Positions 20,082 through 63,618 of a DNA stretch of 64,000 bases are shown one piece after another. A program made the position numbers and the translations under genes. Every line of letters starts with the position of its first letter. Within the stretch, counting starts at the first letter, position 1. Source of the DNA: an uncultured SAR86 cluster bacterium. Lineage in GTDB: Bacteria > Pseudomonadota > Gammaproteobacteria > Magnimaribacterales > AG-339-G14. Under the pieces are notes generated by a model. The model was not told the DNA's origin. It searched no databases and was given only the letters and a program-made list of their open reading frames with translations. The stretch spans positions 62,001 to 126,000 of the forward strand of contig CACMKG010000002.1 of the NCBI GenBank assembly GCA_902614235.1, read 5' to 3'.

Positions 20082-20753
20082 TTAACCAATCAAGTTTATT
20101 GCTTCTTCGAAGCTACATATAGGCAACTCGTCTAAAATTTCTAGAAATTTATCAAATTCTGATCTTAATAGAACATCAGAGAGATCAGGAACAAGATAAT
20201 CATTAGTAATTTTTCTCATTAGTCCAACGCCTCGATCTATTTCAACAATTTTAAATTCAATGTTTTTGGCCTGACTCAATTCGTAAGCAAGCTTCCAGCA
20301 ATCTCCTGTCCATGGCCAACCATTTCCTAATCTTGGAATGTGCTGTTCTAAATAATTTGCAGGCAAAAAATCATGAAATGCAATCCAACCATTTTCATCA
20401 ATACAATCCAGGCTATTTAAAGCATCTTTTCTAACTTGAGAGTACTCGTGAAGACCGTCAATAAAAATTACATTAAATCTTTTTTTATTATCTTTAAAAA
20501 AATCATCAGAAGTAATTCTATGAGTACCTCCTGAAGTAGGGTCTACTCCTATTTTGTTAAAGCAAGTTACAGAATCGAAAAGCTCATTCTGATCACAGCC
20601 AATCTCTAAATAATTGCTGTTCAACCCTCCGGTTTTTTCAATTAATCTGTTTACTAAAGCAATTCGATTGAATTTTTTTTCATTCCATTTCCAATCAATG
20701 TCGCCATCTTTAGAATTATAAATTTTTTTATATATGCTTCTTTTTAAATCCAT
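20082..20753 (-). CDS. Class I SAM-dependent methyltransferase-like protein
   Basis: A 223-aa protein with a Rossmann methyltransferase core: motif I is NYLEIGCDQNELFD (~55-68), the acidic turn is GVDPTSGG, and VIFIDGLHEYSQVRKDALNSL (~95-116) matches the Methyltransf_24 pattern with IDG.H. A following HDFLP segment is also usual for that group. These enzymes often modify sugars or small metabolites, but neighbours (tRNA-Ser, tiny membrane genes) give no hint of the substrate. Confidence 0.72.
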   Translation of the reverse strand: MDLKRSIYKKIYNSKDGDIDWKWNEKKFNRIALVNRLIEKTGGLNSNYLEIGCDQNELFDSVTCFNKIGVDPTSGGTHRITSDDFFKDNKKRFNVIFIDGLHEYSQVRKDALNSLDCIDENGWIAFHDFLPANYLEQHIPRLGNGWPWTGDCWKLAYELSQAKNIEFKIVEIDRGVGLMRKITNDYLVPDLSDVLLRSEFDKFLEILDELPICSFEEAINLIG

Positions 20754-20962
20754 AACAAACTCTAAAATATTATAAGTTTTATGTAAAAATTTGTATCTTT
20801 TATTATTAAATTTGGAAAATTTATAAAATTGTGCCTTGATTTTTTACCTTTGTTTGACATTATTTGAAAAAAGATGTTCCTTTATTTTTTTTTGAGTTAT
20901 TTCTTAATTTTTTATATGTTTAAATTTAAATTGCTAATTACATAAACTCTGGGGAGGAAATT
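20754..20962. promoter_or_regulatory. Divergent AT-rich leader before the tiny membrane proteins
   Basis: 209 bp between the methyltransferase (leftward) and the first tiny membrane gene (rightward). A TTGACA hexamer is at 20854-20859 but no good -10 lies 16-18 bp after it. A very strong ribosome-binding site GGGGAGG (20951-20957) sits five to six bases before ATG 20963. The rest is A/T runs. Confidence 0.4.
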
Positions 20963-21184
20963 ATGGAAAATGCATTTAATATGATTCGTGACTTGGTTTC
21001 AGGTTTAACTGGAATCTTAGTCGGTGTAATCGGGTTGGGAGTTGTTGCTGGAATAGTTTTTGGCGGAAACTCTTTTTTCTTTGGTGATGTTTTAAACCAG
21101 CTTATTGCTGTCATACAAACATTAGGTGACAATGGAATCGTTGGGCTTTTAGCAGCGGCTATTCTTATACAGTTACTTAGATAA
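20963..21184 (+). CDS. Tiny two-span membrane protein A (73 aa)
   Basis: Unrecognised 73-aa hydrophobic protein. Two membrane segments are visible (~14-36, GILVGVIGLGVVAGIVF, and ~57-72, IVGLLAAAILIQLL) joined by a Phe-rich loop FGGNSFFFGDV and a GDNG turn. The second gene (21238) shares this plan, so they are tandem paralogues: both have GI-(V/I)-FG, then FFG.V, then G(D/E)(N/E)G(I/L). It has the strongest ribosome-binding site seen in the window. Candidate roles (holin-like, small channel, assembly factor) are speculation; I cannot name the family. Confidence 0.72.
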   Translation: MENAFNMIRDLVSGLTGILVGVIGLGVVAGIVFGGNSFFFGDVLNQLIAVIQTLGDNGIVGLLAAAILIQLLR

Positions 21185-21194
21185 CTAAAGATAT

Positions 21195-21229
21195 AGGTTA
21201 GGGGTCTTTCATTAGGCCCCTTGCCTTTT
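21195..21229 (+). terminator. Terminator-like hairpin between the tiny membrane genes
   Basis: AGG TTA GGGG ... CCCC TTG CCT forms a 7-bp stem with a symmetrical 3x3 internal loop and an 12-nt loop, followed by TTTTC. It sits 10 nt after the stop of gene A and just before gene B, whose ATG (21238) has no ribosome-binding site. It could cause partial termination so that A is made in excess of B. Confidence 0.55.
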
Positions 21230-21237
21230 CAAAAATT

Positions 21238-21465
21238 ATGGACTGGTTTAATTTGGAAACAGTAAAAAACTTTCTGTACAAAGTTACAGAAGTCTTGGCT
21301 TTGTTTGTGGCTGTTTCATTATTGGTCGGTATTATTTTTGGACCTGAGACCGCTTTCTTCGGGTCAGTGGTGTCTAATTTTTCTTCAATCTTATCAATAA
21401 TTGGGGAGGAAGGCTTAATTGCCTTGGTTTCGCTGCTAATAATAGCCGCGATTCTTAAAAAATAA
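21238..21465 (+). CDS. Tiny two-span membrane protein B (75 aa)
   Basis: Paralogue of the preceding gene: 75 aa, two membrane segments (~17-36 and ~55-73), with the shared linker here FGPETAFFGSV and turn GEEG. N-terminus MDWFNLETVKNFLYK is more amphipathic than in A and the C-terminus ends KK. The start at 21238 lacks a Shine-Dalgarno sequence, so translation may depend on upstream ribosomes or be weak. Unknown family; function not assignable. Confidence 0.68.
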   Translation: MDWFNLETVKNFLYKVTEVLALFVAVSLLVGIIFGPETAFFGSVVSNFSSILSIIGEEGLIALVSLLIIAAILKK

Positions 21466-21482
21466 GTTTTAATATTTTTGGA

Positions 21483-21557
21483 GGCTGGAAAGTCTGCAAC
21501 GATACATTCCAGCCAAAAATTGGTGGCTGAATAGAGGGCTAATTCTCTATAACAGCC
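21483..21557. ncRNA. Paired hairpins with competing arms after the tiny membrane genes
   Basis: Hairpin 1: GGCTGGAA (21483-21490) with TTCCAGCC (21507-21514). Hairpin 2: GGCTG-A-ATAGAG (21525-21536) with CTCTAT-AA-CAGCC (21545-21557). The inner arms CAGCC (21510-21514) and GGCTG (21525-21529) can also pair, excluding both hairpins, as in an attenuator. On the minus strand hairpin 2 is followed by ACCAATTTTT and can terminate the RRM gene. On the plus strand neither hairpin has a U-tract, so its role after gene B is unclear. Confidence 0.55.
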
Positions 21558-21565
21558 AAAATAAA

Positions 21566-21805
21566 TTATGTTTTGGGTCTTGCTTCGTTGACAATAACTT
21601 TTCTTCCTTCTACTTCAGATTCATTCATTGCTTCAATTGCTTCTGGTCCACCAGAATCTAATTCAACGAAACCGAATCCTCTAGACCTTTTAGTGTCTCT
21701 GTCTGTAATTACATTAGCAGAGGTTACAGTCCCATAACTTGAAAATAATTCTTCTAATTCCTGATTACCAATGCTCCATGGGAGATTTCCTACGTAAAGT
21801 TTCAT
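21566..21805 (-). CDS. RRM-domain RNA-binding protein
   Basis: A 79-aa protein that is a single RNA recognition motif: RNP2 is KLYVGNLPW at the N-terminus and RNP1 is RGFGFVEL near residues 41-48, with the usual helix QELEELFSSYG. Such small RRM proteins are known in cyanobacteria and marine proteobacteria, where some are cold-induced; here that is only a family parallel. It ends just before the paired-hairpin element, which could also be its terminator. Confidence 0.93.
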   Translation of the reverse strand: MKLYVGNLPWSIGNQELEELFSSYGTVTSANVITDRDTKRSRGFGFVELDSGGPEAIEAMNESEVEGRKVIVNEARPKT

Positions 21806-58518: not shown

Positions 58519-59223
58519 TTAAGCTTCTGAAGTCTGTGAGTCAGCTACTGCTGCAGCCCATATGGCTAAACCAAATGCAGTTTTATTAATTAAATCTGCA
58601 AGGTTATAAATAATATTTAAAGAATTAGCATCGACACCGCCAGGTGAAAAATATCCAATGGCATAGCCTAAAGGATAAATTGCCCAACCTACAGTAACAA
58701 TCCATTTGATTGTGTTAAATGCTTGTTGACTAGCAGCGTTTCCACTTGAAGCGTTGGCCGCGGCTGTTTCTCCAAAGAAAATTTCATAAATTATGTATAG
58801 CCAAGCGACCATACCAATTACGAAACCAACAGTGACATTCATTAATCCCGTTTCGCCTAAATAACCAAAAACTAGCATCACTATGGAAGCTATTAAAAGC
58901 TTCCAGAATATAGCTGCTGAAATTGCAGTTACTGCAGCAATAACCAGATAAAACTCGATTATTTGAAGTGGTACTGTTATTAACCAGTCAATGTAACGAT
59001 AAACTGTTGGAGTATCTCCCATTACTACCCACACTTCTCTCATGTATAGGTAATGCCAGAAAGCTACACCAGTTACTAATCCAGCAACAGTCATAGATGT
59101 TTTCCACTTGCCCTTTACATCAGATCTTTCAACAAAGAAAAATACTGTTGAAGCAAGCATAATTGCTGTTGCTAACCAAAAAGAAATACCAACATAATCA
59201 TTGGTAGCTAAAATTGATTCCAT
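58519..59223 (-). CDS. Proteorhodopsin, blue-absorbing proton-pump type
   Basis: 234-aa, seven-helix retinal protein acting as a light-driven proton pump. Proton-path residues match green proteorhodopsin: His57 (H75), Asp79 (D97) as Schiff-base counterion, Thr83, Glu90 (E108) as donor, and Lys214 in ADLINKTAFG for retinal. The tuning residue at GPR position 105 is Gln (TVPLQIIEF), the blue-type. There is no signal peptide ahead of helix A, unlike green proteorhodopsin. A GGGAGG site is 4-5 bases before the ATG. It has a 98-bp 5' gap. No blh or crt gene is here. Confidence 0.97.
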   Translation of the reverse strand: MESILATNDYVGISFWLATAIMLASTVFFFVERSDVKGKWKTSMTVAGLVTGVAFWHYLYMREVWVVMGDTPTVYRYIDWLITVPLQIIEFYLVIAAVTAISAAIFWKLLIASIVMLVFGYLGETGLMNVTVGFVIGMVAWLYIIYEIFFGETAAANASSGNAASQQAFNTIKWIVTVGWAIYPLGYAIGYFSPGGVDANSLNIIYNLADLINKTAFGLAIWAAAVADSQTSEA

Positions 59224-63387: not shown

Positions 63388-63618
63388 TTGTAAAAAAAGT
63401 CTCTTAACTTTATAATCGCACTGCAATCGTTCATTCCCTGCACTATTTTAATGCAAGGAACGGAAGTAGGAAGATAGGAAAACCTCTTTCTTTTTTAAAG
63501 AAAGGCAAGCAAGTACCGATAAGGGAACGAGACCGAATATCTACCGAAGGAACGCGTTGAGAAGGGTGTGCATTTTAGGATGCATGTACGAAATCGAAAC
63601 GAAAACTGGAGGCACGAT
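63388..63618 (+). promoter_or_regulatory. Promoter and long structured leader of the YRGxK protein
   Basis: A near-consensus promoter TTGTAA (63388-63393)-17 bp-TATAAT (63411-63416) predicts a start near 63423, leaving a leader of about 195 nt. It holds several hairpin candidates: TTCC.TGCA/TGCA.GGAA (around 63434-63462), CCTCTTTCTTT/AAAGAAAGG (around 63482-63506) and GCAT/ATGC near 63570-63584. GC content is raised. GGAGG (63608-63612) precedes ATG 63619 by six bases. No ORF of note lies inside. Confidence 0.6.

Follow-up and report, generated by a model that had tools for sequence, protein, structure and literature searches.

What is the role of two adjacent short genes, here called A and B, that encode related small membrane proteins in an uncultured SAR86 cluster bacterium, and do their products work together? 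The window in which they lie, meaning the whole stretch of DNA analyzed here, spans 64,000 nucleotides of contig CACMKG010000002.1. The two genes (Table 1) are homologous, strictly adjacent, and fixed in order, differ in this genome by a very strong Shine-Dalgarno (SD) sequence on A and none on B, and are separated by a hairpin that is conserved in structure. With a probability of about 0.5, an abundant A and a scarce B would be homologous two-span inner-membrane proteins working as a pair or assembly.

Two homologous proteins with unequal Shine-Dalgarno sequences

A and B align from end to end, with 23% identity and 62% positives over 73 columns (E=1e-10), and share the plan helix, FG...FFG.V, GDNG-GEEG, helix. 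A sequence-only reading of this locus had proposed two neighboring genes with one plan, and the open reading frames, the motif, and the alignment bear this out. B has the variant motif FGP(E/D)..F(F/V)G and a more basic N terminus than A. In the predicted topology of A, the outer segment is acidic and the first span is rich in Gly, Ala, and Ser. Basic ends with an acidic middle recur in nearly every group compared, the N terminus of SAR86 A being slightly acidic, and this charge pattern predicts an N-in/C-in topology for both proteins. Small residues in the first span of A (positions 21, 24, 26, and 30) may allow tight helix packing; in each group, at least 92% of sequences have Gly, Ala, or Ser in the column of G26. 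AlphaFold modeled B as a helical hairpin (pLDDT 88) and A as three helical segments with modest confidence (pLDDT 74).

Table 1. Features of the A-B locus, in window coordinates
Feature	Position	Strand	Basis or remark
TTGACA element 5' of A, promoter -35 candidate	20854..20859	+	upstream alignment
TTGCTAATTACATAAAC, conserved 5'-leader element just 5' of A's ribosome-binding site	20931..20947	+	upstream alignment
GGGGAGG Shine-Dalgarno of A	20951..20957	+	duplex energy
Gene A, 73-aa two-span membrane protein	20963..21184	+	ATG start, ORF
Intercistronic hairpin, core stem 21200-21221 plus outer pairs	21195..21229	+	starts ~10 nt past A stop
Gene B, 75-aa two-span paralogue of A	21238..21465	+	ATG start, ORF

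Upstream of A, the TTGACA element is kept in all eight aligned genomes of SAR86 family f1, and the remaining upstream DNA is divergent. Its promoter function is putative, because the search for a matching -10 hexamer found none and a consensus scan lists no promoter at this position. The ribosome-binding site of A has a duplex energy of -11.3 kcal/mol, ranking 2 of 61 starts in the window (median, -0.9). The proteorhodopsin gene (58519-59223, minus strand) has a slightly stronger GGGGAGG site at -11.6 kcal/mol, and across the 64 kb this motif precedes an ATG only at these two genes. The claim that A has the strongest ribosome-binding site of the window thus holds as to great strength, and A shares the top with the rhodopsin gene. 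The start of B scored +2.2 kcal/mol (rank 60 of 61), with no SD sequence in this genome; the absence of a ribosome-binding site had been read correctly, and the two energies support the expectation that A and B are probably expressed unequally. In SAR86 family f2, B has a good SD sequence (-7 to -11 kcal/mol), so the A:B ratio may be less extreme in some lineages.

Both genes are under purifying selection, which is stronger on A, with pN/pS values of 0.000 in genus g1 and 0.024 in genus g3, than on B, where values of 0.063 and 0.055 are themselves evidence of strong constraint (about 0.06). The pS of A was about half that of B, which fits a highly expressed gene. With its strong SD sequence and a pN/pS of 0.00 to 0.02, A looks highly expressed.

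A hairpin conserved in structure between A and B

The core stem between the genes is terminator-like, with 8 bp, 5 of them GC. Counted within the window only, such hairpins are not above chance (1 found, 0.8 expected), and significance comes from comparison across spacers. All 44 SAR86 A-B spacers fold at -16.7 to -24.4 kcal/mol, with a median z of -4.7 against dinucleotide shuffles (window control spacers, +0.8 to -3.8); the weak exceptions are three f2 spacers with z about -1. Including spacers from a SAR11-like order described below, a stem lies 3' of A in 54 of 54 cases, two SAR11-like ones (L212 and L213) being doubtful, as these spacers are longer and place the main stem differently. The median stem has 12 pairs and the median start is 10 nt past the stop codon of A. 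Since the 5' arms comprise 43 distinct sequences among the 54 spacers, it is structure that is kept, not sequence. Paired columns also change together in two close groups, where 93% and 100% of cells are paired and two pairs in each group show two-sided changes; with five or six sequences per group, this covariation is supportive only.

A U-rich tail (at least 5 U in the next 8 nt) follows the stem in 14 of the 54 spacers and in none of the SAR11-like ones, so in most cases the hairpin does not qualify as a classical intrinsic terminator. The terminator-like hairpin described ahead of B is real and has a counterpart in 54 of 54 spacers (two of them doubtful), mostly in a form that is not terminator-like. 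In most lineages, it more likely protects or processes the A message than plainly terminates it. A search of Rfam over 20750-21600 returned no RNA family. Two more stems lie 3' of B (21483-21560), ahead of a convergent RRM-protein gene (21566-21805). Elsewhere in the window are an IMES-5 small RNA, a marine RNA family (RF02995; 18886-19033, minus strand; 130.8 bits), between a trpS-like gene and a glutathione-transferase-like gene, and a Glutamine riboswitch (glnA leader; 63426-63558, plus strand; 42.0 bits), whose span of 133 nt is unusually long for a 53-position model.

Distribution of the pair and of single relatives

The family is carried by 45 of 61 genomes of the SAR86 order and by 26 of the 29 near-complete ones. 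A wider sample yielded 165 matching genomes, all within four SAR86 families (f1 to f4), and 159 of these have exactly two copies (three have one; three have three or four). The 44 SAR86 pairs whose DNA was read all have A first and B second, on one strand. The conserved pairing across SAR86 on which the sequence-only reading had staked its case is thus confirmed, and the family also extends to the SAR11-like order, Thioglobaceae, and phages, beyond the SAR86 frame of that reading. Most genomes of genus g2 have no pair, near-complete ones included, so the lifestyle does not depend on it. In families f2 and f3, rpsO-pnp lies upstream and ychF-pth-rplY-prs lies convergent downstream; f4 has other upstream genes, and in the genus of the window the flanks are methyltransferase and RRM genes. 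Because neighbors vary while the pair stays together, the ancestral SAR86 site is probably pnp-A-B-ychF. The sole match in a phylum-wide sample of 399 genomes was the genome of the window itself, and the class sample held only three matching genomes outside SAR86.

In an order of a different class, with 1.2-Mb genomes and rhodopsin, which is presumably SAR11, 39 of 97 genomes were positive, and 38 of these 39 have exactly two copies, the exception lying at a contig edge. In this SAR11-like module, A usually has an SD sequence, the motif in B is FGP..PFLG, and the hairpin between them folds at -20 kcal/mol or better. The pair adjoins an amino-acid ABC transporter in family f257, and most genomes of family f252 have no pair. 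The order A-hairpin-B recurs at unrelated loci: methyltransferase/RRM, pnp/ychF (f2 and f3), and the ABC transporter (f257).

Thioglobaceae (SUP05) present another arrangement. Here, 46 of 80 genomes of the order were positive, with one to three tandem copies, flanked by ubiA and dapD at every locus read. Each copy has a good SD sequence and a canonical terminator, at the position matching the A-B hairpin, and single-copy genomes exist. Genomes of genus g122 in this order (about 1.0 to 1.6 Mb), presumably those of animal symbionts, had no family member. One chromosome (L126, 3241-4294, plus strand) has three tandem copies, with TTGACA...TACTATA ahead of each later copy; the first and third are nearly identical, which suggests recent duplication or gene conversion. 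Another gammaproteobacterium (L138, 3384-3935, minus strand) has a member of 183 aa in total with a long low-complexity Lys/Thr-repeat tail.

Such self-contained copies, together with the single copy on most phage contigs, are what would be expected if A and B were two independent proteins, A abundant with its own 3' hairpin and B a retained paralogue read by leak-through, and adjacent paralogues need not form one complex. Still, in SAR86 and the SAR11-like order, A or B stands alone only where a contig ends or in a small number of incomplete genomes, the pair stays together across relocations, and B is itself strongly constrained. We therefore regard independence as the less likely reading, although the strongest of the rivals to a joint assembly.

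The best tree unites SAR86 A, SAR11-like A, and three phage copies in one group (99/94), with the phage copies inside SAR86 A, and shows SAR86 B and Thioglobaceae each as a single group. A weak split (79/86) leaves SAR86 B and SAR11-like B on one side. Over 76 columns, the AU test did not reject independent duplication in SAR86 (P=0.13), nor did it reject a placement of the phage copies outside SAR86 A (P=0.32). The simplest reading would be one ancestral A/B pair passed between two classes by transfer.

Likenesses to known proteins and a possible working of the pair

Neither Pfam, NCBIfam, PHROGs, nor PADLOC gave a credible match, only scattered weak matches, mostly to one member each. The PDB sequence, PDB fold, and viral fold libraries likewise gave none, the model of A being of modest confidence; recA matches in the PDB sequence search stem from fused recA chains, in which no single stretch passed alone. 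In the open-access literature, we found no paper describing the family, the module, its breadth, or the structure-only hairpin. The suspicion that no described family has this signature is upheld across all these collections. As a kind, small two-span membrane proteins under unequal expression are known.

Several named proteins resemble A or B in part. ATP synthase subunit c is also a helical hairpin of ~75 aa with a first helix rich in small residues, but A and B have no conserved second-span carboxylate, no polar cytoplasmic loop (theirs is predicted to be outside), and no Pfam match; this candidate was rejected because no second-span column is acidic, the acidic position lying in the turn and being absent from Thioglobaceae. 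MscL shares with A a short amphipathic N terminus followed by a Gly/Ala-rich first span, but A is about half as long and has no Pfam match to it. VirB2/TrbC pilins also place two hydrophobic spans in a short protein, but A and B have no signal-peptide extension, no adjoining secretion genes, and no Pfam VirB2/TrbC match; this candidate too was rejected, the one weak match being to TrbL (E=0.017), a different family.

Two groups of relatives occur on marine T4-like phage contigs. The neighbors of one group resemble genes of Kyanoviridae phages, such as C48C1, Melnitz, and HTVC008M, and the family profile found no member in seven whole phage records that included these three. A tblastn search of the GenBank phage collection also gave no match, although its low-complexity filter may hide such hydrophobic queries. 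One contig carries both groups, as two divergent members ~25 kb apart (L061, 8001-8228, plus strand; L072, 1498-1740, minus strand).

Class II holins are small proteins with two spans, both ends inside, and a basic C terminus. At about 70 to 75 aa, A and B are within the size limit for such holins (under 100 aa) and are predicted to have the same two spans, N-in/C-in topology, and basic C terminus. In one phage group, a gene for a SleB-like cell-wall hydrolase lies ~0.5 kb away from the relative. That the cell has taken over a holin/antiholin-like pair, which would open or guard membrane lesions, is nevertheless improbable: transcription of the phage gene runs away from the hydrolase gene, with another gene between; no PHROG or Pfam holin profile matched; and a chromosomal pair this constrained and apparently highly expressed, with such an SD sequence, is unlike a tightly restrained lytic gene. 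More improbable still is phage exclusion at the membrane, with cell and phage versions blocking DNA entry by competing phages. Small membrane proteins can block DNA entry, and in one phage group the gene stands alone, runs against its neighbors, and has its own SD sequence and terminator. PADLOC gave no match, however, and slow, order-wide conservation at stable loci is unlike patchy, fast-evolving defense genes.

Another likeness is one of organization. In the puf operon of Rhodobacter, small light-harvesting membrane subunits are also encoded before a hairpin that contributes to their excess, and segmental mRNA stability contributes to the stoichiometry of LHI to reaction center (PMC6238624). 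Differential decay reshapes at least 12% of Escherichia coli operons (PMC5927463). The A-B module has the conserved hairpin, and an abundant A with a scarce B would follow from the SD sequences and selection. Unlike the puf subunits, A and B are paralogues, with no evident sequence relation to puf, and differential decay of their message is putative.

This puf-type anatomy leads us to propose an A-rich, B-poor membrane assembly. Transcription would start upstream of A, and A would be translated very efficiently. The hairpin past the A stop codon would protect the A segment against decay from the 3' end; in those lineages that have a U-tract, it would also end part of the transcripts. Little B would then be made, and the A:B ratio would be set by the unequal ribosome-binding sites together with the hairpin. 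A may form a homo-oligomer in the inner membrane, which B would join in small number as a cap, nucleator, or gate. We infer this co-assembly, its stoichiometry, and any biochemical function, and strict pairing makes the earlier idea of a two-component membrane device plausible. Of possible functions for the assembly, a small pore or a membrane-stabilizing element of free-living marine cells seems the likeliest, but this is a guess of low probability. Somewhat more probable, but tentative, is the view of an undescribed system of two-paralogue hetero-oligomers with fixed unequal stoichiometry. Horizontal transfer would have spread it between SAR86 and the SAR11-like order; SUP05 would have relatives, and phages would have taken up copies that keep the function running during infection.

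Relatives occur in two cultured strains, "Candidatus Thioglobus singularis" PS1 (two copies; chromosome of 1,714,148 bp; PMC4616169) and "Candidatus T. autotrophicus" EF1 (one copy; 1,512,449 bp; PMC4616170), so the function can be tested.

Few marine bacteria are as abundant as SAR86, SAR11, and SUP05, and their genomes have shed most dispensable genes. A nearly unchanged protein pair with a top-tier translation signal and no match in the family libraries searched points to a common, unnamed membrane function.
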